DNA of 64,000 nt from Bryum argenteum (taxonomy: Eukaryota; Streptophyta; Bryopsida; Bryales; Bryaceae): the NCBI GenBank assembly GCA_037043015.1, contig CM073322.1:27556364-27620363 (forward strand), written 5' to 3'. Positions 36,183 to 60,578 of the stretch are shown here, one piece after another. The position numbers were made by a program, and so were the translations under genes. Below the pieces are notes generated by a model. That model was given only the letters and a program-made list of their open reading frames with translations, did not search any database and was not told where the DNA came from. Numbering within the stretch: position 1 is the first letter of the stretch; every line of letters starts with the position of its first letter.

Positions 36183-36262
36183 CAATGTGATTACGGTGCG
36201 AGCGGTGAGCGGTGAGCGGTGAGCGGTGAGCAGATTTTTACGCTCATTGAGCAGATTTCGAG
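36183..36262 (+). repeat. Left terminal inverted repeat of element 2
   Basis: Begins CAATGTGATTACGGTGCGAG, followed by four tandem GTGAGCGG/GTGAGCAG words and CTCATTGAGCAGATTT. The inner part matches the reverse complement of the right end; the outermost ~14 bases match only loosely. Subterminal tandem words of this kind may serve as transposase binding sites. Confidence 0.85.
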
Positions 36263-37803
36263 GGAATATTCTGGTCCAAAAGTGAATATAAAATGATTTT
36301 ATTCGAACAAAATTTGTATGAGTGTACCCCTATAACCGTGGGAATGGTGCCAGTACATAACAATTTAGACCCTACAACCGTGGAAACTTGGAATTGGAAT
36401 TTAGACCAATTGTCAAAACGCCACAGTTTTAAGGTTTAAATTCGAATCCAGACCCTACATCCGTGGTAAATTGCCTCCATGAGGGCCGATTTACACTTAG
36501 GGGACGGGCCAATTCAGCCCGTTTGAGGGCTGAAATCCTCACTCGTGATTGGCCGAAAGGCAAAAATTAGGCTCAATCCCCTTACACCTAAAGGCCGGGC
36601 CAATTTGGTGGCAGAATTTTTTTAATCAAGAAATGCAAGTTCTGACATGGCCTGATCTCGGTGAATTGGGTGCATCGAGAATGGAAAGCCAATGTCGGAT
36701 TTGTCTAAGAAAACCTTTTATTATATTTAAAATTTTATTTTCACCAAATCAAATCTGTCCATTCTTTGAGAAGTGCTGAATTTTTTTGGACTTCATTGAA
36801 TTGGCCAGGCTTCTTGGCCCGAAGGCCATTACACATGGGAAAATCAGCCCCCATTCTAATCATATTATAACGAGGACATGAGGCCGGCCCCAGCATCATC
36901 GTGTCTAAAAAATGAATCTCGATTATCAAACCGGCCGGCCAGTGAACACGCCCCATGTACCGTGACGTTGGTAAAGTAAAGAGCATGGTCTTGGAACAAG
37001 ATGTCGGTGCTCATTGTAATGTTGAACCTCTTGAGAGGGGATGGGTCAAGTGATAAAGAGTGTCGGAGTGTCGGAGTGTCGGTGAAAACGTCCCACTTAA
37101 CTGTGCCATGTTGGTGCTTATTGTGATTGCGGGTACAGATGGAAGGAAATGATGCTCGAGTGATTTGAGTCCCTGCCGACCTCGTGAAAATGTAAGAGAA
37201 TGCAGTGTTGCACTGAGATTTTGTGTCCATTGTCATGCGAAATTGTGTCGGTGCTGTGAAGTGTCGGATTCCAATTCGTTGTGATGTTGAAATTCATGAG
37301 AGGGGATGGGTCAAGTGCTAAGGAGTGTCGGAGTGTCGGAGTGTCGGAGTGTCGGTGAATACGTCCCACTTAACTGTGTCATGTTGGTGGTCATTGTGAT
37401 TGCGGGTACTGATGGAGAAGGATGCTCGAGTGATTTGAGTCACTGCCGACCTCGTGAAAATGTAAGAGAATGCGATGTTGCTCTGAGATTTTATGTCCAT
37501 TGTCATGCGAAATTGTGTCGGTGCTGTGTCGGTGCTGTGAAGTGTCGGATTCCAATTCGTTGGAGGAATGTCGGTGCCTTCGAGGGTACAGTTCTGCAAA
37601 AGCTGCCGGTGCTGCCGCTCCGGTCGGCACTGCCGGTGATGTGAAGATTGTTTGGTGAGGTTGGATGGGACTCCGAAGTGAGATCAATGAAATCCGGTGC
37701 CCTCTTGGTATATAAAAGAATGGAAGAGCAGGTTTGCAACCATCTCAAAGCAAGTCCTTGGCCATCTCATTCGAAAATTCTTCCTTTTGCTGTTGTGGAT
37801 CAA
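36263..37803. other. Non-coding left arm of element 2 with a ~270-bp direct duplication and TATA box
   Basis: No gene recognised up to 37803. Between about 37021 and 37570 a segment occurs twice in tandem (start near 37021 and 37286); each copy holds GAGGGGATGGGTCAAGTG, an array of GTGTCGGA words (2-4 copies) and CGAGTGATTTGAGT. Nearer the gene a clear TATATAAAA lies at about 37709-37717, roughly 90 bp before the ATG of ADD gene 1, so this arm probably contains that gene's promoter. Confidence 0.6.
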
Positions 37804-38241
37804 ATGGCGGGGCCTTCGGCCGATTTCGATCCCTTGTATCTTTATTCTTGCACTGCGTGTGGGGAGAAGAAAATCCGTGCTTGTTTGTTGGAACATCCTC
37901 GTCTCGGTGTTGGCATATGCATTTCGTGCAAACTCGTGTTGGATGACGTTGTGTTCACGAAGAACGCTCAGTACGATGATGAGCAATGCAATTGGTGTGG
38001 GGGAATTCAATTTGTGATCCCGTGTGATTATTGTAACAAGTCGTGGTGTGCAGGGTGTATCGCACGGAACAAGGGAGACGACTACCTGAAGGACATGACG
38101 GGCAAAAATTGGGGCTGCTTCAGCTACAACAAGTATGAGATAGTGCCTCTGCAGACGATTTGGGAGGATTTCGTAGAATTCACTGACCAAGCTGGTGATC
38201 GCAGCAACAGTGACTCTGATAGTGATTCCAACTACGAGTAG
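37804..38241 (+). CDS. ADD-type zinc-finger protein 1
   Basis: Intronless 145-residue protein. It has the cysteine ladder of an ADD domain (GATA-like finger plus PHD finger, as in DNMT3, DNMT3L and ATRX): CTAC at 16-19, HPRLGVGICISC at 31-42, CNWC at 62-65, CDYC at 74-77, CAGC at 82-85, then W103 and C105, followed by the expected C-terminal helix (TIWEDFVEF) and an acidic tail. ADD domains in animals bind histone H3 tails unmodified at K4; that role here is an inference. The last zinc ligand of the canonical W-x-C-x2-C is Tyr108 instead of Cys. The start is the only ATG before the first CxxC. It probably acts in the nucleus, perhaps guiding the methyltransferase-like protein encoded in the same transposon. 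Confidence 0.85.
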   Translation: MAGPSADFDPLYLYSCTACGEKKIRACLLEHPRLGVGICISCKLVLDDVVFTKNAQYDDEQCNWCGGIQFVIPCDYCNKSWCAGCIARNKGDDYLKDMTGKNWGCFSYNKYEIVPLQTIWEDFVEFTDQAGDRSNSDSDSDSNYE

Positions 38242-39647: not shown

Positions 39648-40233
39648 ATGGCTTCGGTCACCCTCAGTGGTCCAACCTACGATTGTTCCGCTTGTGGGGA
39701 TACTAGGTTTCAGATTTCCTTTCAGCAGCACCCCCGTCTTGCAGTTGGTCTCTGTTGTGAATGCCGTGCAGACTACGCAAAGAAGAAGTGGACTAAGGTA
39801 GGAATGTCACAGAATGGAATGTGTTGTGGACATCTTGTGTTGTCTGATGTTACAGTTTCTGTTCAATATAATGATCTCTCACAATTGGTGCCATTCGTTT
39901 TCCACTTGTGTATGGCAGAATGAGGCTGGGAAGGAAGAGTACTGCAGTTGGTGCTTCGACCATCACTACAATATGATTAGCTGTGGAGCTTGTCCGAAGG
40001 TGTGGTGTACTGGTTGTGTGTCGAACAACAAAGGTGACGAGTACTTAGTAGACATCCAACGCTCTGCAGAGATTTGGAAGTGCTTCAGTTGTGACAACAG
40101 CACGTACACCGAATTGACGAAGACATGGGAAGAGTTCCGAGACACTGCAAAGAAGTACGACCCTCCACTATCACCATCCATTTGGACAGATGCCGTAGAG
40201 GAATGTAGTGAAGATAATAGTAACCGTTGGTGA
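39648..40233 (+). CDS. ADD-type zinc-finger protein 2
   Basis: Two exons, 39648-39797 and 39919-40233, joined in phase 0 over an intron with GTAGGA and GGCAG borders; about 154 residues. The ADD ladder is complete: CSAC, HPRLAVGLCCEC, CSWC, CGAC, CTGC, then WKCFSC, followed by the helix TKTWEEFRDTAKKY. The intron falls between the GATA-like and PHD-like halves, as in ADD gene 3, whereas ADD gene 1 has no intron. It shares HPRL, VSNNKGDEYL and W-x-C-F-S with ADD gene 1 (ARNKGDDYL), showing common origin by duplication. Likely role: chromatin reading near the element's DNA modifier; inferred only from the domain. Confidence 0.86.
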
Positions 40234-40448: not shown

Positions 40449-43400
40449 TCAAGTGCGCGGAACACATTGGACAATTCCACCTAGGAGAAGTCGCTTGATC
40501 TCGTTGAAACTAAGAGTCGGAGCATGGACAAACCGATCTCTCTCACGATCAAGGCCACAAACCACACGGTAAATGTAGTACAGGTGCTTGCAATTTGCAT
40601 AGGATCCACGCGACTTGAACTTGACGTACATGCTTGTAAAGCTAGGGCAAGTACACTCAGGAAATGTACCAATGCTGACCTTGTATTTCTGAGCATCTTG
40701 ATCGGGACCTTTCTTAGAAATGAAATCAATGACGGCCCCGAGTCCCGGGCTTGGCACCAACATAATCCGTGTCAGCTGGACATCGAGTAGCATTGCCGAT
40801 TCCCACTTGTTTAATTGCTCAGTCGCCACCCTCTTTGTAGCGTTGCGTCGACAAGGACGAGAGCTTCGTATGTTCGGGGAACTTATCGGGTTTCTCCGGT
40901 CTTTGGAATGCTTGCAATACTCGCGGCAATCGCCATGTCATCGCCGAATCGCCTCTCGCTTGGCATAGGTGGTCTCTGTTGCGGTGGAATCCGCATCCTC
41001 CAAAGTCAAAATCTCGCGCGTCGTGAGGTTAGTTCCCTTTAACACCGCCGACATCGTGGAACCTTGGGCGAATCGGGAACCACCTCCGCCCTTCCCGCTA
41101 CGCACCCTGCAACATTGTCTGCACAGAAATAGAAGAATTGTGCATAATTCTTGTTCTTAGAGCGGACATGCTTCACGCCGTGGTATGCAGGAGCAGGATC
41201 ACCATTTTGAAGCCCACGATTGCACTTTCGGTTGGAGTCGGGAATTATGGCGGTACAAATACGGGAACCCACTGAAGGCAGGCGGCGAATGTGCCACATC
41301 TTTGGTGAGCAGTCCTCTTCCAAAACCTTCGTGACGTGCTCCACCGGTCGTGATGGAACATGTGTTGTCCCCTCTACAACATGGTCATCATCGTCGTCGT
41401 CACCGTTATCTTCGAGCTGAATCGGAGTTGAAGGCGAACCTTGTTGCCGAGTCTTCATAGTCTTTGGTTGCGAAAAGTTGACCTTGTCGAACCGGTGAGA
41501 GTCGTCGTCGCAGCCTGGTTCGGCATCGAGCCTCCGCTTCGTGGATCCAAAAATCTCTTCTCCTGCGAACGATGCGGCTCCACTGAGAAATTTCTCCGCT
41601 CCAGGGATGAGGTCCATTGCCCGATATACTGACTTCAAATTACCAGTCGTAGTAGCAGAGCGTGTTGCCGCGCGGAACCGCAACTCCTCTTTGGTGGGAC
41701 CAGTACCTGATCCTCGACCTTTGTCGTAGGCATTGTACCGGGTGCACTGAACAAAGGCACGGCAATAGTCTTCAATAGTAGCTTCAAAAATGTTATCACA
41801 AGCTTTGCCAGATTGCTTGCTCCATGAGGCATGCACAGTCTCTGACAAGTTGCACATCGGCATCTCCGCCCTTTGTTCGTCTGTAAGATCCTGCAACAGC
41901 AGAATTTGGAGAAGATGACAATATGGAGTAAGTGAACTGGAAACACGGGACGGTAATTTAAAGGCAAGTTGAAATGACAGAATATCGAAAAGGTAATGAT
42001 GAAACGTGATAGAACATACCATGTTCATGTATCCGCCCCACTGCCAATATCGAAAGTGCCACCATGCCAACCAGTTGTCTAGCGCACGAATGTCAGAGTC
42101 ACTTGCTGCTCCACTCGTAGACCACCATGAACGAATCGCCATGTATCGGGACTCCGCTTCATCAGGTGTGCGCGCGTCCTTGCACTGGGTACAGATTCGC
42201 TTGTGCTCGTCTCGAAGCTCGGGCTTAATGTAAGAGTTTGTTGCTCTTTGCATGCAAGTAGTCCAATGTAGTAGACATGAGCGTTCCTTATTAGGCATTG
42301 GAACGGTCTTATCACTCAAACCGTAGATCTCTCGAACAAAGATTCCGGTTAGCTGCACACCGTCGCCCATGAATCCCGCGAAATTAACGTTGTGAACCCG
42401 TGCTCACCCATGACAAAGATTGATCCCTCTCCACGGTATGATTGAGCATCTTGGGTTTCGGACATCATATCGCAGATTGCAATCGTCATCACCTTGCGAT
42501 ACGCCGAGTCGTAAACGCGTGGCGGTGCAAAAGTTGTGTACCGTTTGATGCGCTTGACGTGATCGAACATCACCCATGCATTCTCCGATCCTCCTGGTTG
42601 CATTCTCTTGACGAGATCAACGCCAGATCCCGGTCCGATCTCCGACATTTTGAAGACGAACACCTTGTCGGTCTTACTACCTTGGCCAGAAATCTGTTCT
42701 CCCGCACATAGGGCCGAGAGAGGTGCCTCTCAATTCGCACACTCCATCGATTATGCCCTTCTTTCCCATCCTTCTGAAGTGGGACACATTGTGTCGAATA
42801 GTGGGACTCGTGAAGCTCTCAAACTTGAACATAACATCCTGCATTTCAGATTCCGTTAAGAATGATTGGGACTCGCCATCCTTCTTCAATAGGTAATCTC
42901 CAAGGAACTCCGTGCTTGCAGACAATGCAATCGCAGAGGGTGAGACCTTCGGTGATCTTTCAAGCGCACCCTTTAACAATTGGTCACGGAGCTCTAAGGA
43001 CTTCCTACATGTACCTTCTCCTACCGGGTGAGTGTGGTATCCAATATGGATACATGCTCTGGTTGTATTGGTATCACCTGTGACATAATACATGATAGCA
43101 GAGCATTGCAGCATACAAGTCGGTTTTGCCTTGCATATAGCGCACACCAGTGTCGACTCAGAGTCTGGGCATTTCCCAAGGAACGGCTTCTTTGCAAAGC
43201 CATCCCACAACTTCTCATTTATCTCATCGGCTCGCCCGGGCCTGTGAAGAAATCCGCACTCTGGATTCTCACATCGCAAATGACCAGCACAAGAAGCTGT
43301 GCGGAACGTAAGACCATGGTCGTTTTGAATGTTTCGAGTCTGCAAATGGCACCATGTGTGACCGTCGTATTGCTTGTCCATCCCCAACAGTCTCTTCGCA

Positions 43401-43981
43401 GAGTTTGTCTTGGCTTCCAGAGGTGGGGGCGGAAACTCGAAAATTACATTGCCGTCATACTGGGGCGGCAAGAACTGAACAAATGAGTACTGATACATAC
43501 TTAGATCTAACCTACAGAGTTCGCTCTTGGCCCCCTTCCTGAACTGCAGATTCCGAATGCATGTGACAGCACTGACAGATTCCTTGATTGATGGTGGACG
43601 CGGAGGCTTCTTGCTTAAACTCTCGGACTTAGAAGGAGAATGTGTTACCGACATAGTTTGATTACTCTTTAGTAGGTGAGAATCCTGGGAAGCTGGTACA
43701 ACCGTCTCTTTTGAAGACTCAACATCACTATCATCTAGCTTGATAATAGGGGTCATCGTTGCACATGACGGGACGACCTCGCACTCCGACACGGACGTTA
43801 CAACTACCGGATGAGATTGGATGACAGCACCCTGAACACGATACTGCGAGGATTGTAATATCCAGTATACATCTTTCTCGACGATGGGCTCCATGTGCAC
43901 AGTATAAGACAACTTGCCTACATCATCCATGACTTCTTCCTCAAGGAAGATCGAATCTAGTCCCAAATTGAACTTTGCAGC
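40449..43981 (-). pseudogene. Mutator-like SWIM transposase of element 2, multiply frameshifted
   Basis: Paralogue of the minus-strand gene at 25270-29112, with the same order: WRKY-GCM1-type finger (YDGHTWCH, CENPECGF, HIGYHTHPV), first Asp (TIAICDMMSET), second Asp (GFMGDGVQ), a C-x2-H equivalent (RSCLLHW), Glu (NLSETVHASW) and a SWIM finger with CTCPSF and NCKHLYYIY. One intron (42019-41891) sits where the other copy has its own. The frame is broken at several places: twice within about 42690-42725 (after the ELRG motif), once near 42385, and again near 41040 and 40950. The N-terminus cannot be followed past about 43981, where a different sequence block starts. The SWIM cysteines and histidine are preserved despite the lesions. 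Confidence 0.85.
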
Positions 43982-46395
43982 TGTCGGAACCCGTTTTCTT
44001 GATTGAATACTTCATAAGCGTAATGCGCATTAAGAATAAGTATAGAGTCTAGAATCCGACCTAAGTATGTGCCAGGCCGTATACTATAAGGCAATTACGT
44101 TTTTACAAATAAGTGTTATAGTTAAAATCTAGTTTGTGATAATAAGGACGGATTTGCGAATCCTTACTCTGCTACCGTACGGCTAGGAAGGACTGTCAGA
44201 AGCCGGACAAGGGTTTTAAGTACGGCGGCGAAAGGACGAAGTCGCCGGAATGTAACAATGACGGAAATAGCGAATGACAGCTCTGTACCAGACCAGGGTA
44301 TGATGGCCGGATTCAAATCCGTCCTTGAGAGGATCAAAGAGGTCGGATTCATTCCGGCCTTCCCAGACACACCAGCACAGACCCCGGTCGCTCGTCCTCC
44401 TCTAGTGGACACGCATCCATATGAAAGCGACGAGAAGTACGAGGTAGCAATACAGACTTGGAATCCGGATTGAGAATCCGGTCTAGAATTAGAAAGCCGG
44501 AAACGAATCTGGCCTAGAATTAGGAAGCCGGATTAGAATCCGGCCTAGGTTTGAGAAGCCGGATTAGAATCCGGCCTAGGATTGAGAAGCCGGATTAGAA
44601 TCCGGCCTAGGATTGAGAAGCCGGATTAGAATCCGGCCTAGGATTGAGAAGCCGGATTAGAATCCGGCCTAGGGTTAGAAATTCGAACTATGGCAGTTGG
44701 TAGGATCTTTTTGGGAAAGCGAGCCGCTTTCCGTAGTGTAGGCCTAGTAGGGCGGCCGCCGCTAAGTTTTTAGGTTTTTAAGTCGTTGACTTAGAAGTAC
44801 TTATAGGGGGAAGTTTGGCCACCTAAAACATTCCTTGCTTGAGTGTTAATCGAACCTTCTTATGCGCATATTCGGTGTGATCATTTCCCTGTCTCCTTTT
44901 CAGTTGAGTGCTTGGAAAGCCGGATCTACTTTGTGTGTTGTAAGTTGGGAGTTAGGAATCCGGATTCTTTGTTAGATCGTTTCTGTGGAGTTGAAGTCGG
45001 GTTGGGCGTATTCTTGAGTGCCTTGTGTCTTGATCTGGTCCAGGTGTCTGAGAGAGGGAAACTGCTGTGGTAAACGCTTACGGTCTGGGAGGCTCTGGGA
45101 GTATAGTGTGTGAGGACGGATTCCAATCCGGCCTCCAGCTGCCACAGACTTGGGTTCCTCTGTAGTCTCAGAGGACGGATTAAGCGCAGTACGTGAGCAG
45201 AATACGTGTAGACGTCTTCTAGCCGGATTCGGAGCTCTTGGAGTCTGTCATTGTAGTAAGGGTGATAGGGTAACCAGGACGGCCTGCGTGACCTGCTAAT
45301 TCGGACGGATAGGACGGATTAGTTGTGAGGACGTAATGTGTGCCTTAGTGTGTGTGTGTGTGTAAAGTCTAAGTGTGGAAGTTTCCGCCACGGTAAACAT
45401 AAGGGAAAGAGTCTTTGTGCATCCCCTCTTGCAAAGGGATACCCTTGCCCTGCAAGGCTAAAACATAAGTTGGGACTAGAAACGTTTGTGGGTTTGGTTG
45501 TTTTAGCACTACTTGTCTTGGTCACTTCACAGAATCCCTGGAACGATACACGAGTCACCTGAACACGGGTTTTACACCAATAAATGTGTAAGGGAAGATA
45601 ATGTGAATACATGGCATCCGACAGCAGCCAACATTCTAGCAGTTACGACAATGCGACCATCAAATTGCGGTAGTACACGTAAAGGGGCTCGCCCAGCATC
45701 TACTCGAATCGTTGCCATTCGTGAGAAACACAAGACACAAACAAGGCATGCAACAAGCAGTACTTAGACAAGCTTGCAGTTCATTCGAAACCAGTTCAAA
45801 TTTAGAATAATAGTAGCTGACGAGGATAATAAGTGCTATAAGTGGTAGTACTATGAACTATCGAAGTGGAGTCTCCACTGACATTGATGGCCTTGGAAGC
45901 GTACTCAATGGACGTCATTCTAGTAAACTGACAGATCACAGAAATAAGCATGGGCCGGAAAAATTATTAAAGGGTCTACCCAAAAAATAGAGGATGTGGG
46001 ATACTATGGCTCAATAAATCCCATGGGCGGTTTCATGTCCTCTTCAGCCATTGATGGCCCGGTATGCAGAGAATAAAATATTGAGGCCTTTCGAACGATG
46101 ACGGCTACTTTGAAGTGTTCACCCTTAAATGACAAGCCCCTCTGAAAATACAGTGGATACCAAGCCCCAGGGGCATGCACTGACGATTAGAGGTTAATGA
46201 GAGTTAAGTAAGAGAGACGGCGGTTTGTTACAAGGACGCTTCTTAACTAATTAGAAAACAGCGCCGTTTTTTTAGGAAAACGCATAGAATTAAAGGTTTC
46301 TGTCCACGTAGTGTCAGTAGACATATAGGACACCTCCTAGAGTTAAGAAACCGAGCATCTGCCGGGCTTTACACATCAGGAGGTATGTCTTAGTG
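43982..46395. other. Unassigned block between transposase and methyltransferase-like gene of element 2
   Basis: In element 1 the corresponding gap is 518 bp; here it is 2.4 kb and contains material of different composition. From TGTCGGAACCCG (43982) to about 45600 it is rich in CCGGATT and GGACGGATT words. It holds a 71-codon ORF (44258-44473, MTEIANDSSVPDQG start, no family recognised), a 31-bp palindromic tandem array (44490-44672), a TG repeat near 45350 and a GC-rich tail. This suggests an insertion, perhaps a non-autonomous retroelement, that removed or displaced the transposase 5' end. From 45600 to 46395 nothing is recognised. Confidence 0.45.
44490..44672. repeat. 31-bp tandem repeat with internal palindrome
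   Basis: Five to six units containing GCCGGATTAGAATCCGGCCT and GATTGAGAA. The core CCGGATTAGAATCCGG is nearly self-complementary, so each unit can form a hairpin. The repeat starts just after the stop of the small ORF at 44473. Confidence 0.92.
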
Positions 46396-49300
46396 ATGCC
46401 GCGAAATACAGCTGAGTATGATCAAAGTAGCAAGAGTGCTAGAAGTAAGAAGCGGAAAAAAAGAGTACCTGGGGGTCGCTTGTATTTCTCTAAAAAGCGA
46501 TCCAGTGCGAGGCAGATGAAGAACAGAGATAGTCGGGGCAGCGCAGTCGATATAGGCGATACAGCGAAGGCTTTACTTCCGATTTTAAAGAACTTGGGCT
46601 CGGATTCACAGATGGGGCGCGCTCGAACTACGTACACCAGGCGCAAGAATCAGGCATGGCTGCTCATACTCTCTAGTATCTGAGATTTAATGTTTGAAAA
46701 GGTATGCTAATTTGATAACACATATGCAGGATAGTGAGGGTGAGGTTGACAGGAGTCTCAACATGGAGAATCACAAAGATGAAACGAGCAGCAGCAAGGA
46801 CGATGATGAAGGTAAGCAGTATTCTAAACTAACATAGACAGGAACAATTTCGCGATAAATTGTTAGTTGAGGATTATTGCTCTTGGTAAATGTCCTTCTC
46901 GATGTACGTAATTACGATGGACAACAAAATCACTCGGCACGGAACATGGAGCTTCATGTCGAGTTGTACCCGTTGAGTCGATTGCGATCTTCCATGTTAA
47001 TGATCACAGCGGCCCATCATCATGGACATCGCACGAGGGAAAAGCAGCACAATCGTCCTCTCCATACCGGCGGCACATTAGGGAGCGCGAAATTCTCGCG
47101 GCAGCCTTCCGGCAGTGAACGTTGCTCGAGGCCAATCGTACCTTGGGCTGCCCTTTGCACAAAGGATTCTAGCAACTACTTTTCTCACAACCTCGATTTT
47201 TTTCACCGTTTCGAAGCACGCTGTGGGGTTTAGGGTTTCGGGGCACCTGAATCTGGTGTTAGTGCGATAGTGCTCTATCGACGCGGCTACGACGAGGCAC
47301 CTGCTTCAGCGAGGCACCTGCTTCATCGACGCACCTGCTTCATCGAGGTGGCGGCCGTCGCGGAGGCGGCAATCGCTTCATCGGGCCAGCGCCGGAGTGC
47401 TCTTGTGTGAGCTTCGGAAGCGGAACTCCTCTACCCACCAGCATCATTATCTCATCGAAGAGGCTCCGGAGTGGTGGCACAGGCCCTACTCATCATCCCG
47501 ACGGCGCAGTTGGAGTTAATTCGTGGGATAATCTCCTCGCCGGCTCCTGCTGCAGCTCGCAGCAACGTATTTCATCTCGCCGGCGCAGACGGCATCTCCT
47601 GGCCTTGGTCGGCTACTCGCCCCGGCGGAATCTGGAGGCACCTGAGTCGTCTCGACTGTGTAGTTGGAGTCGGCGATTGCTGTTTGAGCTTGACGGCAAG
47701 TGCTGCTTCATCTCGTACTCATAGCCGTTGCGGCACATCCGCCAGTCACTGCCACACAGGTCTGAGCGAACGAGTCACCGTTCGAGACAAACCCTAGGTT
47801 GCAGGATTCAATGGCAGATGATTAAATTGCAGCCTTGATTTCAGAACTGGTATTTATACCGAGCTTGGCCTCTAAGATTTTACTCTGATAAGTTTTATCC
47901 TCGTGGCTTTGCAGGTTCAAGGCCAGCAAGAAGTTTAGTGACCGTGTTTTCGTGTTTATGGGCGACTTAGAAAGTACCGTTGACTTCTCTGCAGGTCAAG
48001 CCATGACGCAAGGGTCGCCAGTCGATATGGACCATGCCACGTCGAAGAATGCATATGATGGATCGCCAGAACTTTCGGGAGAGGACGCCGAAGAAATGGC
48101 CTCACCTGGACCAAGTTCACCTGTCCAAGCTGGAGTCATTTGTATTCATGACACGCCAGAAACTACTCCTGGTAAGAGCATTGAACTCTATCATTTCATT
48201 CATTCTGTTGTAAATTTAGAAGGGCGGGTAATATGCCGGAACTAGAGAGATAGCCGGACTCGGGACAGTACGCCAGTCAAGTCCACTTTCGGTTATCGGG
48301 ACACTGCGAGGTCAGCATTCTATCACGAACGGCTTCCTACGACCTCTGTGGGATGGGGTTACATTCGAGCCTGCGACCACTGTGGGGTGGGGTGACATAC
48401 GAGCCTGTGACTATAGGCGTCACCGGCATTCAGAGCTCGAGGGTACGTATCACCTACCCGTGAATGTTCACATTTGTTTGATGACAGTAGGATGCGTATG
48501 TGGAATTTCAATAGTTGGTAAGGGAGTGATGGGTTGTTCATGGTTGGGTGTGGGCTGATAGCTTGCGGAGAGATGGGATGTGGATGTGTCACGAGAATGC
48601 AGGACGGTTTTCATGGGAATGATCTGGTGCGTGGATTGAAGTCGCAGATATCTTTGAACAAGTACCTAATGCTTCGACGTGCACGAAAATAGATGGGAGT
48701 GGCGGCACAGGCATTCGACAGCATCCACAAGCTACGCTCAATTCTCACGGGGTTCAAGGGAACTTGGAGTATTACTACGAAAGTGGCGGCACGGGCTTGC
48801 AGCTGCAAGAGTGAGAGGAGGATGTGAGCAAGCCGCTGTGATATTGAAGGCGGTGATTGCCGAGATGCTTACTCGGAGACACTGGCGCTTTAGTACTGAG
48901 TGGCGGCAGAGGCCCTACACACCATGCAGGGGTAAGTGATATGTGCATTTCAGTACTCGGATACATGGTGTCCAAATCTTTGGGTCGCGGCGTAGGTTCC
49001 AAGCTATGCTCACTGCTCCTAAAAGTTCTAACTGGACTATGCTTAGATTCTCGCGATGGCAGGAAGGCGATGCTGTGTAGGACCCCTGCCCAGCATGACT
49101 TCGAGAGCTCCAAGGTTTGCTCCTGAAAGCTGAGAGTCGCGGCACAAACATTCGACAGACACGGGGCTTCGAGAGGAGATGGAGCATGATGGCGAAAGTG
49201 GCGGCATGGGCTCGTAGCTGCATGCAGAATTTGTCGAAGGCGCTGTGAAAAGTGTGAGCTGGGGACTACAGAGGCTTGGTCGTGGACACTCGCGCAAGAG

Positions 49301-52300
49301 TCTATAGTGGCGGCAGAGATTCTACACAGCCTGCACAGGCTTGCCCATATGAGCATTCGAGTAAATGGGATGATTTTGTACGAAGCGTAAGGTCGCGGCA
49401 CAAGCTCAGAGCTGAGCTCAAAGCACCGTGACGTTGTCAGTTGATCACGGCAAGATGGCGAAGATGTCGAGCTGAGCAGAGCTGAGCTCAAAGCTCCTTC
49501 ACGTTGTCACTTGATCACGGCAAGATGGCGAAGATGTCGAGCACCACGAGGATTGATGGAGTGGCGGCACAGGCATCTGATAGGATCCACGAGCTACACT
49601 CAACTTTTACGAGGCTTCAGTAGTACATGAAGTGTTTCGACTCAAGTGGCGGCACTTAGGGGATGAGACACTGGCGCTTGAGTCTGGAGTGGCGGCACAG
49701 GCCGAAGACAGCATATCTGCGAGGGCTCAAAGGTACGGTTGAGCTACATGGGGTCGTGCATCGGTTAAATCATAGTATAATTGTGTTCGGAAGTTGCTGG
49801 CCGGGAGGGTTATAAGTGGCGGCACATGCCCTCGACCGCGTTCGCTTGTAGCCTCATCTGGTTCCCCTCGTGGAGTGCCGGCAGCGGCAGACCCACCTCA
49901 GCCCCGGCAGACCCATCTCAGACCCGGCATTCACATTACCAGCCCCGGCAGACACCCCCTTGGCTCCGAAAATCACTCATTTTGCTTCGTAAGGACTCTT
50001 CCAATGACGACTTGGCACGAATATTCCTGAATGAGTACCAACGTTGACTTTGATGGTAGCGGCAGTGGCTCATAAGGTGGGGGCAGTGGCTTCGAAAGTG
50101 GCGGCAGTGCCCTCGATCCTTCAATAAACTCGTCGCGGCGCAGGCTCCGTGGGTTGATGCTCAGGCGTCTTCCGTGCCGGCAGAGGTTCCGTGAGTGGCT
50201 GCACAAGGATCGGGTGTGGCGGCACGGGCTTCCTGCTCTACGTCAATTGTTTCAGTGGTCGCGCCACTGGCGTCCATGCTGCATCGGGGGTGGCTGTTCA
50301 TTACTCGTAAGTGGCGGCAGAGGCTTCGTGGCTGGCTACTATCACGTCGACTGTAGCGATACGGGCATTCATCGCTTCATAGGTCCACGCAGCCGCGTCC
50401 TTGCTGGAGACGTGATCGTCGCGGCACAGGCTTCGTTAGAGGCTGCACAGATGTTGATCGTGGCGGCACGGGCTTCCATAGCATCGTCACATGCTTCGTT
50501 AGACTCGGCATTGTCGTTGTTGAAGGAATGGACTTCGTCGCGGCACCTGCTTATAAGGTGGGTGCTCAGGAGTCGCCCGTGGCGGCACAGGTTCTAATTG
50601 ACGCTACTCATTGGTCGTTTGTCGCGTTACGAGCATTCTCCACAATGACACCTGCTTTGCTGATCAAGGCACTGACGTCTTTGCTGAACCAGCTCCGTCG
50701 CGGCACCGGCTTCGTGGGTGGATGCGCATAGGTCGTGTCAGCCGTGAATTGCTTCAACGGTCGCGCCACTGGCGTCCATGCTGCAAAGGCCTCATGCCGG
50801 CAATGGCATCGGGGTGGCTGTTCATTACTCGTAAGTGGCGGCAGAGGCTTCGTGGCTGGCTACTATCACGTCGACTGTAGCGATACGGGCATTCATCGCT
50901 TCATAGGTCCACGCAGCCGCGTCCTTGCTGGAGACGTGATCGTCGCGGCACAGGCTTCGTTAGAGGCTGCACAGATGTTGATCGTGGCGGCACGGGCTTC
51001 CATTGCATCGTCTCATGCTTCGTTAGTCTCGGCAATGTCGTTGTTAGAATGGACTTCGCCGCGGCACCTGCTTCTCAGGTGGGTGCTCAGGAATCGCCCG
51101 TGGCGGCACCTGCTTCTAATGTGGGCTACTCATTGGTCGTGGACTTCGCCGCGGCACCTGCTTCTAATGTGGGCTACTCATTGGTCGTTTGTCGCGTTAC
51201 GACGTCTTTGCTGAACCAGCTCCGTCGCGGCACCGGCTTCGTGGGTGGATGCGCATAGGTCGTGTCAGCGATCCCTGCCAATGAGACCGACATCCTCCAT
51301 CAGTGTGCCAGCAGCTACTGGGTTCATTGAAAACGAAAGTCCAGATCTGTCGGAAGGTAATTTACTTCGTTTTTACTTCTCATTCTATGGCTCTGATACC
51401 TTCTCGCAAATATCTCTTAAGCTTTTCACATAGGGAATTGTCCCGCTTCCAAACTTGCAAGCTTAATCATGTAACATCGTGTGCCCAGACAGCACAGATC
51501 TCTTGTTGATAGGATCATGTTTGTACATGTTCCGGCAAGGATGACCTCAATTTTTAGTTTAGTAATCAAATTAGCCGGAATGGATCCCCATCTTACATTT
51601 TTGATAGATTGACAGTGAACTCATGGCACGGGCTATCTTGGTGGCATTACAGGCTTCGATTAGCTCGGCACTGGCATCGAGAGTCGCATAGGGTCGCGGC
51701 ACTGGCATCGGAGAGAGGCACAGGCTTGCGCTAGAGTTTTCCTGAGTGGCGGCATTGTCCCTCGACAGCATCCGGATTTCGAGTGGCTTCACGGGTACAT
51801 GGTGTACCAAGCCGTATGCTTGCAGCTGCTAGACGCAGTCGCTGCTTTATTGCAAGAATTCGACTGTCGAGCACCCCCGTTGAGCAAGATTTCAGCTCCG
51901 ACAAGGTACGGAATAGATACCGTGGTCGTGCTTCCATTTCTTGATGAGATCAGGATGTGCCCGTTGTGCTTGGAAAGTGTGGGGCGGCCGAGGCACTTGC
52001 ACCTGGACGCTTGCGTATTCAGAGCCCTGAGTGCCGGTACAGGCTCCACATTGCATCCAGAATAGTCAAATTCTCCGCACTGACTATGTCGTGATGTTGG
52101 GATGCAGATCGTGATCTTGCCCGTCGTCAGCATGCCGAGATGTGCACAGAGCTTCACATGTACTTTGTGATCCGTTGCCTGAATGAAGGCACAAGTGCAA
52201 TAGGTGGTGCTTGCTAGATGCAGGCGATGAGAGTCAACTCCCCGCACGTGGCAACGTCATTCCAATTTCTCGTAGAGCTACGAATCCTGGCACACCTCTT

Positions 52301-55300
52301 CGGGAAACCAGCTGCACGTCTCGGAGGAGCTTGATTGCGATGTCCCGGCAAAGGGGCTGTTCGGTATTGCAATTACACAACCTCATTGTGTACCAACCTG
52401 AATGTATGTGTTGTTTTGCAGATGGTGGTGCTGATGACGCCATTGAGGAGGCGGAGGGCAACGTCTCGAAGGCGTCCGACGTTGCGAATGAAGGATGTCC
52501 ACCTGACGAGTTCCCTGCTCTCGAGATCGAGGAAGAAGAGCAAGCGGATGCTGACATTCTATCGGAGGCCGATGTGAACAAGGAGGTGAATAACCTTGTT
52601 AGTTCGGAAGCTGCAAAAAGTGTCTCAAAAATTCAGCAGTTGCGCTTCCAACCCGTTCACAAATCAAGGATGTGCATCCCGCTTTGTCGAATGTTGGGGC
52701 TGCCAGTTGTGAGGCCAGCAATGAAATCCGACATAGCCAGGCTCCAGGATCATTTTCGAGATGTCGGCTACGTTGAAGGTCAAGGAGTCTTTTACGTTGC
52801 GATCGAGAACGACAACAAAGAGCCAGGCAAGGTGAACACCGTGGACGTGACGGCTGAGATCGTCGCCTCGTGGAGCCCTAATTGGGTGAAGGTAAATGCC
52901 GAATTTGAAGAGTTCTTGCAAGCCGATCCCGATCTTCAGAAGTTTTCAGGGAAAATGTTTCACGTTTGGGACGGAAACCACCGGTTGGAGGCTTGGTACC
53001 CATACATCAACGCCGAGAAATCCCATGATCCATCATGGCATTTCAGAGTCGATTGCATCTTGCTAGACCTCAAAGGTGACAACATGACGGCGTTGACGGC
53101 GCTCCATGAAATAAACTGGTAAGTGCTAATTCCAACTTGTTCGTGGTATTTATCTTGCGTTTGTATTTTGCCTCATGTTGGAAGCAGGATGTTTCAAATG
53201 ACTTTCAATAACAACATTTTGTTCTAATTTGTTCCATGTGCAGGCGAGTGGAGAACAGTCATGTGCAGTTGAACCTTGTGCACAAGCTGTACCGGGTTCA
53301 GAGGATTGGGCGGCAAGATGTGTCCTACTTCAAAGGGATAATTACACCGGAGGAAGAAGCAGCATCCAACCTCAAAAACCTAACGAAGTCCACCTGGTTT
53401 AAGCTAACCGCAAGTGCACTTTGTAACGTCCTGTATCAGGTACAATTCTCTTACTTAAATGACACCAAATTTTTATTGAATCTCAACTTACAAGGGAATC
53501 ATTTTGCAGACGGAGTTCGCTCAAGAAGCAGCGAAGGCTGCCTCAGATTTTCGGCGTGATTGTCAGGCAGGCAAATACACAGCAGCAAGTATTCACGACG
53601 CTGTCAACAAACGAGTGCAGGAGAAGAAAACTTCGCTGTTGAGCGAGTTGAGGAAGCAGTTACCGATTTGCCACCCCGATAATACTCCCAGGTTCCTCGA
53701 ACTCATCAAGGAGCATTACGAGACGTTTCGGGAGATTGAGATGTCCCAAGAGAAACTGTGGTATTTTGCGATCTCAGCGATGGACATCGATACGAAGCTC
53801 CTTTGGTTGGAACGGTGGAACAAGCCTCCCAAGTTCCGCGAGAATCAGCGGTTTCCCAAGGTTGGGTTCAGTGAGCAGACATACCTCAATTTCCTGAACA
53901 AGGCGACGTGGTGGTCTCAGGTACCCAGTCCTTCGATTTTGCAATTCTATTTGGTCTCATGTTGCTGCCATATTTGTTTCTAACGATCCTTTGTGATGTG
54001 AATTACGCAGTTATCCATTGTTGTTGCAAAGGATTTCGAGGACGAGATGGACATGGGAAAGCAATTGGTAAACTACAACCCACCGGGTGTAGATGAGCCG
54101 GTCGACACAGTGAGCGAGTATGTCGAGAGGATGAGAATTGCGTTATGGGAGAACGCATTTTTCAGGGAATTCTCGATCAAAGACAAGGAGCTGAAGAAGG
54201 AAGGGGGAGGGAAGGGCGTTCACAAGAACAACCCTCCCGAGAAGCAGCCGAATTTCGAGAAGGCATCCTCAAGAGTGCTTTACCGGTATGTGAAGCATGT
54301 TCTTCTCCCGGTGAAGGCAATTTCAAAGTCTCCAACCAGCTTCGTGAACTACACGAACACGAGCGATGAGAAGTGTATGTATACTGCTGCGCAGCTGAAG
54401 GAGTACAAAAAGCAGCACTATGTACCATGCGGTTGGTACATGGACATGCCGAAGGGTATGTATCCTGAGTTCGAAGAAGACCTTCTTTCCAAGCTTGAGC
54501 CTGAGCTTATGAAGTTGAAGGCAGTCATAGACCTTGACGACAGTCAGGCCACCACGAGTCGGCGTAAGCGCAAACCCCGTCCTCCCGTGGTGTCCCCACC
54601 TGCTGCCGCCCCTCTGGATGCGAAGCTTGACAACGATACTCAACTGATTCCGAAGGAAGGTGCTCTCGAATTCGATAGACGGGCCAACACTCCCATCGAC
54701 GCCGATCTGTTCATTGAGGACCACTTTGAGAGCAGTCCTGCTCAAAATGAACGTGGTCCGCTACAGAAGAAAGCCCGCCTCGGTCATGTTTCGGGAAAGT
54801 CTTCTTCAATCGCTACCGATTCCATGATTGCAGCCGAAAGTTCCATGCTTCCGTCTGCAATTCGTGGGATGATGCTTGATATTCACCCAATCGGGGCGCC
54901 TACTGGCGCTCGTGTCAAAATAATCAACGACACGTTAGTGCGATGGTGGGATCTGAAGAAGATGACAGGCTCCTTTCCTGAGGAATTCGAGGTTGCGAAG
55001 AGCTTCCTTTCAGAGGTAAACAACTACTTTCTTGTTGAGTTCCATATCATGTATTCAAATGAAGTCATGCTGTAAACTGATACCTTTGAATGGCAGGTTT
55101 CCGTAGGTCGCCGCTTGTACTTCGAAGGCGTCCCCGAAGTCGGTCGGCCTGGCATAGATTTGATGCTAGCGGAGTACCCAGATGGTCTACGTGTTCCAGG
55201 AGTCTCCGATCCCGAGCACCAGATTCCCCGTTGGAATTCTGATCAAGAAACATTTTTGAAGACAATTGCTGAATTTGCTTACAGGTACCTGCATGACGAC

Positions 55301-57770
55301 GGCGCGATTGTAATCTTTTATCCAGATTCGTATGCCGTGCGTAAGAAGATCGAGGCGTTCACTTCGAACTTCAACCTCAAGATTGCGCTCGAGTGGAACA
55401 TCCTCAACTCGCTTCCTCTATGCAGCCCATTGAACCCTGCACGATCGGTAAGTTCTTCACAGACTTAGCTTTTTGAGTTAGCTTTTTATTTCTGTGATGA
55501 ATGTGTTAGTCATTGTACTGAAGCAATATTAGAGAATTGGTGGAACCTGGGCTTCTATTGGAATTTGCTGGGTCTCGTTCTAGAACTTGCCGGGAATTCC
55601 TTGAACCTTCGCCAGCTCCGGCAGCCTTGAAGCCAGCTCCAGCAGCCTTGATGCCCCGGCAACCAGCCCTCGTTTGTTGTGACTGAGATCCACCCTGCTG
55701 CAGTCCAATGCCGGTGGCGGCGTTGCCGTTGTAGTGCCGGTAGTCCCTCTCAATGATCCGGCAGTGCCTGGTAGTGCCGATAGTCCCTCTCAATGATCCG
55801 GCAGTGTCAGCATGCCGGGAATTCCTTGAACCTTCGCCAGCTCCGGCAGCCCTGAAGCCCCGGCAACCAGCCCTCGACGCACCACCTACTCCCGTCAGCA
55901 TGCCGGGAATTCCTTGAACCTTCGCCAGCTCCGGCAGCCCTGAAGCCCCGGCAACCAGCCCTCGACGCACCACCTACTCCCGTCAGAATGCCGGAATTCC
56001 TTGAACCTTCGCCAGCTCCGGCAGCCCTGAAGCCCCGGCAACCAGCCCTCGACGCACCACCTAGGTCTGCCCCCCTGCCGGCGTCGGCGTTGCTGTTGCT
56101 TGGCCGGCAGTGCCTCCTGACGCCCCGACAACCAGCCCTCGACGCACCACCTAGGTCTGCCCCCCTGCCGGCGTCGGCGTTGCTGTTGCTTGGCCGGCAG
56201 TGCCTCCTGAAGCCCCGGCACTGCTCTCTGTGAATCGGTTGGCTATCTCCACCCGTTCAGTTCGTCCGAGTTGAAGCTTCGTCAGCTGACGCCCCGGCAG
56301 CCATTGCAGCATGAAATTCTTAATAGCCTCGAACGATCTCCACCCGATCAGTTCGTCCGAGTTGAAGCTTCGCCAGCATGAGTCCCGTCAGCTGACGCCC
56401 CGGCAGCCATGGCAGCATGAAATTCCCAATAGCCTCGAACGATCTCCACCCGTTCAGTTCGTCCGAGTTGAAGCTTCGGCAGAATGAGTCCCGTCAGCTG
56501 ACGCCCCGGCAGCCATGGCAGCATGAAATTCCCAATAGCCTCGAACGATCTCCACCCGTTCAGTTCGTCCGAGTTGAAGCTTCGGCAGCATGAGTCCCGT
56601 CAGCTGACGCCCCGGCAGCCATGGCTAAAACCCCAGCCGAGCCTTGAAAGCCTCTCCAGTCCGTCGCTGGTGTAGCTCCGCCAGCCCTGAAGTCCCGGTA
56701 GCCCTTGTCGCCCGTGCAGCCACGGCAGTTCTCCGGCTTGGACACTTCATTTGGCACTGCCAGCCCTATTGCATATTTGCGAGCAATTGGAATTCTTGTT
56801 GGAAGTTTGTATTAAAGAGATGATTGACTTTTTATTATTAATTGCTTTCGGTTTGTCAGTACTAAATCATATCTTTTGATTTTATATGATGTGCAGACCT
56901 TTATCTCCAAAGTCGTCGTTATGGTGCGGGCGCTGCCATCTACTTGTCGTCGTCAGCCTATCCAGCTCGACATCAAACTCAATCCATTCACACCAGCCCT
57001 TGACCTGAACAAGCAAGACATGCTCTTCAACGCCATCGACGAGCAGAGTATTCTTCGGAGGAAGTCGGATGGCAAGCCATGGCGGGGTCCGAAACAACGC
57101 ACTGAGCTTTTTTTCAAGCCCCTCATTTATGGAATGTGTCCTGAGCGTGGCTTAGTACTGGACTTTGCGGCTTCGACGGGTTAGTGATCGGTTGCAAATT
57201 CTAATGAAAATTTTGTTCTTTCTTATTCGGAATTAGTCATTGAATTTATTGAATGAAACTAATTGTTGACTCTTATCTGGCCGCAGGCGCATCAGTACAG
57301 GCAGCGCGGTCTCTCAACCGCAACATTCTTGCTCTGGAGGGGGACCGCGAGATTTATACTGAGGTTCTCTTACCACTCACCGTCGAAGCGATGCCACCAC
57401 CAAACACACCGATTGCATCAAACGCAGGCAATGGCGACGACTCTCCAATCCGGGCTGAACATCGCGATGGATTTTGTGAGTGCGACTCAACTGCGTGATT
57501 GATTTTTGAAATTTGATAAGTGCTTCTTTCATTAATCTAATCATCTTGTGTGCTTTTTTGTGCAGTTTAGTGAGTGTCTTTGATAGACTCTCCTCACTTC
57601 AAATTAGTCCTCCAGTATCTTTTAGTCTTCCCTCGTACGCAGAAGGCTTAGCAGAGGCTTACGCCATAGTTTCCTCAGACTCCTCCCCGGATATTGTTCC
57701 GCGCTGGCCTCGTTATCATCCGGGGGTGAAGCGTTACTTGGACTTGAGTGCCTCGGAGTCTGACTCCTGA
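46396..57770 (+). CDS. ParB-like domain plus beta-class DNA methyltransferase-like protein (element 2)
   Basis: Multi-exon gene of >1,000 codons. Exons: 46396 to about 46680 (basic N-terminus, KKRKKR), 46730-46811, 47995-48171, 52422-53118, 53244-53439, 53510-53920, 54011-55015, 55097-55447, 56897-57179, 57287-57475 and a tail near 57566-57770. From 46730 to 57475 phases agree at every junction. The fourth exon carries KSRMCIPLCR and DGNHRLEAW (52970-52996), like ParB/sulfiredoxin-fold proteins. The C-terminus resembles bacterial beta-class N4-cytosine/N6-adenine methyltransferases: a motif IV position (LMLAEYPDG, EYPD at 55172-55183), then KPWRGP, LVLDFAASTG joined to ASV (motif I, AdoMet site) and ILALEGD. 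DPPY/SPPY and the glycines of FxGxG are altered, so activity is uncertain. After 57475 the splice phase meets a TAG, while a 67-residue frame stays open to 57770; a small indel or another last intron is likely. Confidence 0.8.
46812..47994. other. Intron of the element 2 methyltransferase-like gene
   Basis: 1.2 kb from GTAAGC to CTGCAG; the flanking exons join in phase 1 to give a continuous acidic segment. Short repeats occur near 47280-47350 (GAGGCACCTGCTTCATCGA-like words) and GGCGG-rich sequence follows. No independent gene is visible. Confidence 0.6.
48172..52421. repeat. 4.2-kb intron filled with degenerate GTGGCGGCA-type repeats and a ~190-bp duplication
   Basis: Between GTAAGA and TTGCAG the sequence repeats GTGGCGGCACAGGC and GTCGCGGCACAGGCTTC dozens of times at irregular spacing. 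A segment of about 190 bp beginning GTGGCTGTTCATTACTCG occurs twice nearly unchanged (about 50290-50480 and 50813-51003), and CGTCGCGGCACCGGCTTCGT recurs near 50695 and 51223. Open frames in this stretch follow the repeat and are not convincing genes. The flanking exons join in phase (codon GAT). Confidence 0.8.
55448..56896. repeat. 1.4-kb intron of GCCGGCAG-type tandem repeats
   Basis: Between GTAAGT and GTGCAG. Three units of about 85 bp with CCGGCAGCCCTGAAGCCCCG and CAACCAGCCCTCGACGCACC run from about 55815 to 56060. Two units with TCTGCCCCCCTGCCGGCGTC follow (about 56063-56220), then four units of about 120 bp with GATCTCCACCCGTTCAGTTC (about 56240-56625). Repeat type differs from the intron minisatellite of element 1. 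Confidence 0.85.
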
Positions 57771-58312: not shown

Positions 58313-58793
58313 TCATGACGTACTAATATCTGTTTGTTCAAGCGCAATATATCCCCTCTGAAATGCCGCCTCATCTAGCAAACCATGCATATGTTCAGGA
58401 AAGCATACGAAACAAGTCCAGCAGATGTCTCCGGCCGCTATCACTTCTTCGATGAGGTCGTCACCATAATTACGAACGATGCACGTCGCGCACCAACATA
58501 ATTCGCAGCAACTGCACGCGATGAGATCGTCTGACTTTCCACACCAATAGCACGTATCGACATCCTTTGCCTACACAGAACCAATTCCCAATCAGAAGCA
58601 CCTCACAATTAATCGAACTCAAACCTGACCACCTTACATGCTCCTGAACGTCGTTGCTCCTCTCAATCCGATGCTCCAGAAATGCCACGCATATCGCACA
58701 CATTACAACGTCAAGTTCCGCATGAAAATCCAGGTCGTCCAAACTTTCTATTTCTTCCCCGCAAGCTGTGCATGTCAATGTCCTCTCCGCCAT
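58313..58793 (-). CDS. ADD-type zinc-finger protein 3
   Basis: Two exons on the minus strand, 58793-58638 and 58570-58313, intron with GTAAGG and TGTAG borders joined in phase 0; about 137 residues. The start is the Met of MAERTLTC. Zinc ligands: CTAC, a shortened middle with H(AELDVVM)CAIC, then in exon 2 CYWC, CSCC, CATC and CWTCFVC, again an ADD-like GATA plus PHD layout. VRNYGDDLIEEV parallels ARNKGDDYLKDM of ADD gene 1 and SNNKGDEYLVDI of ADD gene 2. The intron sits between the two finger halves as in gene 2. It lacks the HPRL motif of the other two, so it is the most diverged copy. It lies near the right end of the element and faces the methyltransferase-like gene. Confidence 0.8.
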
Positions 58794-60503
58794 TGTCAGC
58801 ATAAGTACCTGCAAATACAAACCGAGCTTCTAAGTGAACCGGACTGCTACAAACACATCGTCAATTAACCATCCGGTATCTCAAGTGCGAGAAAAAAGGT
58901 TCTACGACCTACGTCGACAACCGACTGTCCATCTCAAGATCCTTACTGCGCTCACTTCTGTTCTAACATGTTCTATGTCGTGCAGCGGATGGGCTTGCGA
59001 ATACACACCTCTCTCAAATTTCGCTTAACTAAGTACACGAGAAATGTGATGAAGTCCAGTACAAAATCGAGCACAACAAGTAATGCTGGATTCCCAACAT
59101 AAACAATGCAGACTAGTGAGTCCCGCAAATCGTGCTGACTGTAATCCAGAGTCAAGTTTTCAGCCTTGACCAGATAATGAGAGCAGCGACAACCGCTCCA
59201 TTATACTGAAAGCCGGCACATGCTATTGACCTGCCTTTGGTACGCCATATGTGCGACATTGACATGTCGGAGATGAGCATAGGAGAGGTGGCTGTCACCT
59301 CGGTGCATGCTTCGAGGGCGACTGACAGGAATGTGGCTGACAGCTACCTTACCATAGCATTTATTCTTGAGTACCATAAATAATTCCTTACGTCGATCTT
59401 CCCATCTTATGCATGTACATCAGATTTCTACCTCTATTTTTTAGATTATTCTCCCCAAACAATACTCGTTCACATTTCAATAGATTCTGAGGTGACAATG
59501 AATCTTCTCGACAATTCAGCTATTTCTATCTACGTCCGATTGCTTACATGGATCAAGCCGACTTGTTGTAAGCCGACGATACGGACTCCATAACTTGCAT
59601 TCATTGCGGACCTGTCCACCGATCAAAATTCCAAGTAAACAAACTCGGAACTCAAATGAACATTCACAAATAGGCAGAAAGCAAAATATTTCACTTACCT
59701 TTGTCCAAATAGCCTCATCCCAGAACTCCACATAAAATTCACACATTCCCAATCTTACACCACAACCCACGCCCTCACTGTTCTTGATCATCGTTACACT
59801 ACCACATCCAACACTAGATACCAATTGCTAAATACGGCAAAACAAACACTTGGTTGTCTCCGTGTTCATATTTCAGTCTAGTGTCCTCTCCAAGAAAATA
59901 TGCCCTCAGTCAACGTATTGATGGCAGAAAGTAGCAGCAGCACACAATGTCGGAGATACACCTCCGGCAGCGTGGCCAATACAAGAGAGCACGCCTCGCA
60001 ACCCTAGACCCTAAACTAAAAAACTCGGCTGATTGATGACGTCAGCCCTAATTTGGTCCTTCCATTACAATTTCCAAATGACCTGAACTACTAGCCGGTG
60101 CCACGCGGTATTAAACAACGATCGGAGAGATCCGGCAGTCAATTGTAAATCAGCCAAATGAGGTTGTCAAATTACCGATTCAATTTGAAAGAGTTAGGAT
60201 TTTTTCCGACTCGTGATTTAAATATTACCTAAGTATCACATAAGTATCACCCAAGTATTATGTAGGTATCATACAAAATTACCGAATACTTTTATGAGAA
60301 AGGGGATAATAACTGTATTGTGTCAGAAACTTCCCGAACAGTGGTACTAAATTTCTGTATGCAACACTCTATTATCAAGATGATTTTGACCTCCATTTCC
60401 GCGGGTTTAGGACATTCCACGGTATTGCACACCACTTCTTTATCTTTTTTTTCAAAATTTGGATACACTTTGATGACTTCCAAATGTTAAAATAGTCATT
60501 AAA
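58794..60503. other. Right arm of element 2, no recognised gene
   Basis: AT-rich. A minus-strand frame at 59516-59824 (102 codons, cysteine-containing, no family recognised) and several shorter frames are open but show no supporting feature. A cluster of AAGTATCAC/AGTATCA words lies at about 60230-60280. This arm probably contains the upstream region of ADD gene 3. Confidence 0.45.
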
Positions 60504-60578
60504 AATCTGCTCAATGAGCAGAAAAGTCTGCTCACTGCTCATCGGTTTCTGCTCACTGCTCGCACAGCTGCAATCCTG
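60504..60578 (-). repeat. Right terminal inverted repeat of element 2
   Basis: Reads on the plus strand CTGCTCAATGAGCAG, CTGCTCACTGCTCAT, CTGCTCACTGCTCGCACAG and ends GCAATCCTG at 60578. Its reverse complement matches the left end (GTGCGAGC, GTGAGCAG words, CTCATTGAGCAGATTT). Confidence 0.85.

Follow-up and report, generated by a model that had tools for sequence, protein, structure and literature searches.

Motif arrays, ADD-type genes and a ParB-methyltransferase-like gene point to a possible self-recognition system in a giant Mutator-like transposon of the moss Bryum argenteum

Elements of the Mutator-like (MULE) superfamily generate target site duplications (TSDs) of about 9–11 bp, and VANDAL elements are of the Mutator type. 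In bacterial ParB-parS systems, the gene of a protein with a ParB domain lies next to a cluster of short sites. The present work deals with a 24-kb element of Bryum argenteum located in a stretch of 64,000 nucleotides (assembly GCA_037043015.1, contig CM073322.1, positions 27,556,364 to 27,620,363), hereafter called the window. The element carries a transposase, three small ADD-type genes (ADD1, ADD2 and ADD3) and a gene with a ParB-like and a methyltransferase-like part (ParB-MT), and it is inserted into a second giant transposon; the two are referred to as inner and outer element. We propose that the inner element may possess an accessory system for self-recognition or anti-silencing on a giant Mutator-type (or Mutator-like) transposon, an interpretation to which we assign even chances.

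Sola1-1_Ec32 of Ectocarpus, an element of 21.5 kb, encodes a protein of 1104 amino acids (aa) with ParB and N4C/N6A methyltransferase parts (PMC12477816), and parallels from green and red algae are cited in the same paper (Iyer 2011; Bostrychia genome 2025). As far as the available sections of this account go, giant transposons of algae with ParB-MT cargo have been published before. As in the inner element, the transposon described there is a giant DNA element whose ParB-MT-type protein, about 1100 aa long, and transposase are encoded on opposite strands, and broken transposases are said to be common in giant families (PMC12477816). In contrast to the inner element, Sola1-1_Ec32 belongs to the superfamily Sola-1, and these sections mention neither ADD genes nor word arrays; the likeness is one of description. 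ADD genes as transposon cargo were not reported in the literature searched, which was mostly open-access and in part represented by title and abstract. Hence, the claim of an earlier sequence-only reading of this DNA that no described transposon holds this gene set survives for the ADD genes, within that literature, and fails for ParB-MT.

In Arabidopsis, the targets of VANC are tandemly repeated short motifs (PMC5735166). According to the excerpted text of that paper, the accessory protein is encoded by the element itself, as in the inner element, and short noncoding or intron motifs expand into tandem repeats and vary from one relative to another. VANC contains DUF1985/DUF287, and the same excerpt does not mention an ADD or methyltransferase fold for it (PMC5735166); among the element proteins scanned here, Pfam gave no match to DUF1985/DUF287. 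With ParB-parS, the inner element shares a ParB-like domain and a clustered short word beside its gene, but the similarity is weak, the sites number 18 and the inner word is not palindromic, whereas the core TGCCGGCA of the sibling word is. ATRX recognises H3K9me3, a mark on histone H3, through its ADD domain, as stated in the accessible part of PMC10136513. ADD1–3 match the ADD domains of ATRX, DNMT3 and DNMT3L across both zinc-finger parts, but they are stand-alone small transposon proteins without helicase or C5-methyltransferase. Pack-MULEs likewise capture host genes between inverted repeats; in the portion of PMC6431247 at hand they measure at most 7 kb and hold gene fragments, whereas the inner element carries whole genes that appear to be under selection.

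The inner element is a real transposon with many copies in its own genome. Its two TSD copies agree in all ten positions, and its inverted arms (36196–36270 and 60491–60565) are complementary at 80% over 75 nt, which bears out the sequence-only reading of a single element with matching ends and a 10-bp duplication. A search of the source genome (258.8 Mb, 25 contigs) with the last 236 bases of the element revealed at least 40 right ends, each with an 87–100% match (40 of 133 candidates scored). Contig C5 holds a second complete copy of 23,125 bp which shares both ends and has a TSD of 9/10 (by eye); the left end is also shared by four more copies, of which the left part was retrieved. The TSD length expected of MULEs is thus found in the inner element (10/10), in the outer element (10 bp) and in the C5 copy, and terminal inverted repeats are present in both the inner and the outer element (32 nt at 100% in the latter). 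The inner element is best read as a giant DNA transposon of the Mutator type or Mutator-like, a membership derived from TSD and ends, not from sequence profiles.

The genes of the element recur together. An ADD1 on the same strand 3–40 kb upstream was found for 24 of 43 ParB exons of the own group (62–100% identity, including a sibling subfamily at about 76–81%), compared to a random expectation of 0.62 on average and 3 at most (500 trials), and for 1 of 105 exons of other ParB-MT groups. ADD2-like matches followed an ADD1 at a distance of 0.5–6 kb in 22 of 39 cases. This analysis used 97 ADD1 places and 39 ADD2-like rows from 150 ADD matches, 14 of which were dropped as second fragments or short pieces, and 148 of 150 listed ParB exon rows (153 matches). 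Seen from the right ends, ADD3 was located within 6 kb in 32/40, a ParB-MT exon within reach in 24/40 (17 of the own group and 7 others, with only 24 of the 105 other-group exons tried) and ADD1 within 45 kb in 20/40, two neighbouring right ends on contig C2 sharing one ADD1. All three genes lay near 15 of the 40 right ends including that of the inner element, a number counted without random control. The element family shares its ends and a recurring gene set, and the existence of other genomic copies with these ends and this cargo is established. Four right ends (C4:11373035, C6:18209178, C4:8342458 and C7:15195711) have ADD3 near and ADD1 at 12–20 kb with no ParB-MT exon found between; they perhaps represent element variants without ParB-MT. 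Contig C1 (44.1 Mb) contains 55 of the 97 ADD1 places, i.e. 1.25 per Mb compared to 0.05–0.41 on C2–C11; it looks repeat-rich, and one may guess at a sex chromosome.

Upstream of ParB-MT, the inner element contains an array of the word GTGGCGGCA, observed 18 times as compared to 0.28 times expected from shuffles of the element, and absent elsewhere in the window. End to end, the array stretch of the inner element is about 62% identical to that of the C9 or C5 copy (66–78% in local pieces); other large pieces of the inner element are about 89–99% identical between copies. In C9, 8 of the 18 words were unchanged at the aligned position, versus 254 of 3445 background words (binomial 2e-5); in C5, this applied to 10 of the 16 words (out of 18) that aligned without gaps, versus 327 of 3743 (binomial 1e-7). 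Both binomial values take sites as independent. Six of six own-subfamily copies (inner, C9, C3, C11, C6 and C4) carry 14–18 words, all forward, and C5, counted separately, carries 17, which makes seven of seven. Among six sibling copies, five have GCCGGCACC/GTGCCGGCA, their commonest 9-mer occurring 12–36 times and the inner word 0–3 times. Own arrays were also found upstream of three of four other ParB-MT groups (outer, L047 and L050). As a control, the commonest 9-mer outside the arrays reached at most 10 copies (window, L046, five gene bodies and eight PF10551 loci). Since the outer and L047 arrays are tandem arrays, their word count alone says little. These results show an upstream array of a subfamily-specific DNA word, which is new here. 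Its retention by sister copies beside ParB-MT suggests that the element may recognise its own copies, and the idea of self-marking put forward in the sequence-only reading gains new, if indirect, support from the motif arrays. A coding repeat was rejected as explanation of the array because just 3 of 17 spacings are divisible by three, and a plain minisatellite was rejected for the inner array with pooled flanks at 0.1–1.2 bits versus 2.0 bits in the word.

Alternatively, the array may be a promoter or enhancer bound by host factors, with the ADD and ParB-MT proteins regulating or assisting the transposase without any self-recognition. The location of the array directly upstream of ParB-MT is what such regulatory cargo would look like; however, the word changes with ParB-MT between subfamilies, which host factors would not require, and we consider this explanation unlikely.

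The isolated C-terminal domain of the inner ParB-MT scored above the cut-off of PF01555 (N6_N4_Mtase; 27.8 versus 26.7 bits), whole ParB-MT proteins below it (22.2 bits for the inner one, and 17 bits). All four members tested matched this profile at E ≤ 1, and a ParB-MT profile aligned with CcrMI almost from end to end of the domain (E 0.0013). Judged by these profiles, the domain is a member of the beta-class N6/N4 methyltransferases. The ParB-like part gave no Pfam match in six members, a PHROG match of 7.9e-4 in one of six and of 0.017 for the outer copy (weak), and no meaningful match when its exon was searched as a profile against the PDB (best E 0.12); the motif GNHR is invariant in all six members. 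Of the ParB/beta-class methyltransferase-like gene named in the earlier reading, the methyltransferase family is therefore retained for the isolated domain, and the ParB similarity is weak.

The catalytic motif [DNS]PP[YFW] is absent from ParB-MT and replaced by [DE]-x-P-[DE] in all five distinct copies readable at this site: DLIFADPPYNL of CcrMI corresponds to DLMLAEYPDGL in the inner copy (C5 as inner), DLIYADVPENL in the outer copy, DLIIADIPENL in L047, DLIIADYPDGL in L048 and DLVIIDYPDGM in L051. The region of L050 is not cleanly readable. Because DPPY is replaced in all readable distinct copies, methylation by ParB-MT is doubtful, and its catalysis has presumably been lost. As the same replacement recurs in strongly diverged proteins (28–53% identity among those compared), it points to a function that was kept but changed. 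Comparison of the inner and C5 genes over 842 codons of five exons gave a ratio of nonsynonymous to synonymous differences (pN/pS) of 0.13 without stops, with 30 gap columns in exon one and an alignment of exon five that covered only 233 of its 351 bases; on this measure ParB-MT shows purifying selection at the protein level.

A different interpretation holds that ParB-MT is an active enzyme, guided by the array to write N4-methylcytosine (4mC) or N6-methyladenine (6mA) on the element's own copies and thereby to protect or license them, close to the reading of the Ectocarpus element, for which the available sections of PMC12477816 contain a similar proposal. It draws on the isolated domain above the N6_N4_Mtase cut-off, the matches of four out of four members, the alignment with CcrMI over nearly the whole profile and the order of the motifs, motif IV preceding motif I. 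The replacement of DPPY (AEYPDG, ADVPEN, ADIPEN, ADYPDG and IDYPDG versus ADPPYN in CcrMI) speaks against active self-methylation, which we regard as improbable. The former suggestion that ADD and methyltransferase repeat the logic of DNMT3 finds no support, as the catalytic motif is replaced in all readable distinct copies and the ADD domains reside on separate genes.

The search with the ParB exon yielded 1074 candidates, of which only 150 were scored, and ParB-MT is therefore probably a family much larger than the inner element. A search of a protein collection scored 7994 candidates for ParB-MT, none of which was related at E ≤ 0.001. In viral contigs, 36 stretches fitted a pattern, none of which was confirmed.

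ADD1, ADD2 and ADD3 matched the ADD domain of ATRX with E values of 7e-13, 2e-10 and 2e-13 (phmmer), in agreement with the three ADD-type genes predicted earlier; they missed the curated Pfam ADD_ATRX cut-off of 25.7 bits (18.8, 15.8 and 16.7 bits, respectively). Twelve of 13 ADD1 cysteines are invariant across 26 copies and the 13th is present in 23 of them; by spacing, 12 of the 13 resemble zinc ligands. For ADD1, a pN/pS of 0.24 (bootstrap 0.21–0.30) was obtained from 26 open copies, i.e. the 30 best-scoring ones minus two for length and two for stops, a selection which biases the value downward; as estimated in this way, ADD1 shows purifying selection. Only three other places of the genome (L066, L067 and L068, of host type; 118 candidates scored) pass the Pfam ADD cut-off, and these are presumably host genes. 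Because the intron of ADD2 follows a lysine ('TK') at the same place as in these three genes ('TK', 'TK' and 'NK'; by reading frames), the transposon probably acquired its ADD genes by capturing those of the host. A search of the protein collection with ADD1 gave two candidates, none at E ≤ 0.001.

The captured genes could also be mere passengers, comparable to those of Pack-MULEs and without a role for the element. Within the distances tried, ADD1 is missing at 20 and ParB-MT at 16 of the 40 right ends, as passengers would allow; but both genes show purifying selection between copies, and the same set recurs at 15 of the 40 right ends, so that this explanation appears very unlikely.

The transposase of the inner element is broken. 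A 1,642-bp insertion splits its 5′ part, and the C5, C11 and C3 copies are free of this insertion. The C5 transposase has an open frame of 1000 aa and that of C11 frames of 772 and 524 aa; as these copies hold long open transposase frames, copies like the inner element are probably mobilised in trans. A C-x-C...C-x-H pattern is visible, the SWIM profile match being weak (E 0.10–0.11) and under the cut-off. No profile match to the MULE domain PF10551 was found in the inner-element, C5 or C11 sequence, and hhalign against PF10551-positive frames of the same genome gave 0.2%, which is weak evidence as the profiles are very shallow. The SWIM-type transposase of the first reading can thus be upheld as a transposase, broken here, with a weak SWIM match and no profile match to the MULE domain. 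A frameshift near 40990 is common to the inner-element and C9 (L041) transposases, hinting that broken copies multiplied. A different clade, recognisable by Pfam, is represented in the genome by 52 places with a PF10551 MULE domain (74 candidates scored), none of them in the window.

The 'host gene' struck by the inner element is the ParB-MT of a second, related giant transposon, which is new here. The insertion lies within an exon; outer and inner ParB-MT are 28–30% identical over most of their length, the ends of both elements are similar, and the first frame of the outer transposase shares 41% identity with that of the inner family (C11 copy). No ADD genes were found in the outer element by tblastn with ADD1–3, which returned chance-level matches (E 0.98 or worse). 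The outer left end is present three times (23584–23611, 24196–24227 and 24821–24852). Elsewhere in the window (1206–3560 and 19113–19736), a Gypsy-type polyprotein and a CACTA/EnSpm-like fragment were recognised by eye; taken with the eleven large contigs, they hint at a host of the plant lineage, at a guess a moss. The features of both elements are compiled in Table 1.

Table 1. Features of the inner and outer elements, in positions of the window
Feature	Position	Strand	Description
Outer TSD	23561–23570 and 65296–65305		TTGCTGGGAG, 10 bp
Outer element	23571–64000 in window		right end at 65295 (window count, in L046), 1,295 bases past the window
Outer inverted repeat			GTGTGAGCGTTGAGCGGTGAGCGG, 32 nt, 100%
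Outer transposase	25369–29151	-	frames of 738 and 454 aa
Outer array	31682–35006	+	GGTGCCGAC 31 times, mostly at intervals of about 116 bp, upstream of outer ParB-MT
Outer ParB-MT, 5′ part	35727–36182	+	interrupted by inner element; resumes 60579–64000 and beyond
Left TSD	36173–36182		GGAACAAGAC
Inner element	36183–60578		24,396 bp, bounded by TSD and imperfect inverted ends
Left terminus and inverted repeat	36183–36270	+	starts CAATGTGATTACGGTGCGAGCGGT; same left end in C5, C11, C9, C3 and C2 copies
ADD1	37804–38241	+	145 aa, intronless
ADD2	39648–40233	+	154 aa, exons 39648–39797 and 39919–40233 (splice sites by eye)
Transposase, broken	40449–44011	-	frameshifts near 42700, 42380 and 40990; SWIM-like C-x-C...C-x-H near end
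Nested insertion	43982–45623		1,642 bp, TG..CA ends, 5-bp duplication GCAGC, like a solo long terminal repeat
Small basic protein	46396–46683	+	open frame only, putative gene, divergent from transposase
Inner array	48699–51754	+ (all copies)	18 copies of GTGGCGGCA, upstream of inner ParB-MT
ParB-MT	52424–57770	+	1109 aa modelled, 8 exons (splice sites by eye; N-terminal start provisional)
ParB-MT first exon			ParB-like, GNHR
ParB-MT motif IV	exon 55097–55447		AEYPDG
Long ParB-MT intron	55448–56896	+	tandem repeats; commonest 9-mer GCCCCGGCA, 9 copies
ParB-MT motif I	exons 56897–57179 / 57287–57475		LDFAASTGAS, spanning both exons
ADD3	58313–58793	-	137 aa, exons 58793–58638 and 58570–58313 (splice sites by eye)
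Right terminus and inverted repeat	60491–60578	+	
Right TSD	60579–60588		GGAACAAGAC

Self-recognition and anti-silencing are proposed because a ParB-like protein with a clustered word resembles ParB-parS and the arrays resemble VANC targets. We infer binding of the word, reading of histones, an effect on chromatin and anti-silencing as follows. The ParB-like part of ParB-MT would bind the word arrays of the element's own copies, while the methyltransferase fold with its replaced DPPY would act as a platform binding DNA or S-adenosylmethionine, not as an active methylase. The small, probably host-derived ADD proteins would bind H3 tails, and together with ParB-MT they may mark or open the chromatin of element copies. 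The opened chromatin would let the transposase from intact copies act, and silencing by the host would be resisted, as it is by VANC for Arabidopsis VANDAL elements.

Several observations weigh against this proposal. The binomial values assume independent sites, yet repeats can spread together; the sibling copy C10 has neither word and carries another one, and upstream of the L048 group the commonest word occurs just five times. The link between array and ParB-MT is positional only, and host promoter factors could be the users of the array. Part of the gene set is missing at many right ends. The ParB similarity is weak, the later methyltransferase exons were not recovered from C5, which has a run of N at this place, and no methyltransferase part was matched in L049. 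The last zinc-ligand cysteine of ADD1 is a tyrosine in the inner element, the pN/pS of ADD1 carries the bias of its best-scoring copies, and the AlphaFold models of ADD1 and the outer transposase are poor, with a predicted local distance difference test (pLDDT) of 44.7 on average and of 31.0, respectively.

One can further speculate, and this is distinctly tentative, that the self-recognition system forms a subfamily code: each non-catalytic ParB-MT would bind its own word, host-derived ADD readers would link the copies to chromatin, and code and reader would coevolve, separating siblings from each other and from host silencing. If the proposed self-recognition holds true, transposons would tag their own copies in a sequence-specific manner and resist silencing with a system built from parts other than VANC, and our results would suggest that a transposon took up histone-reader genes of its host and retained them.

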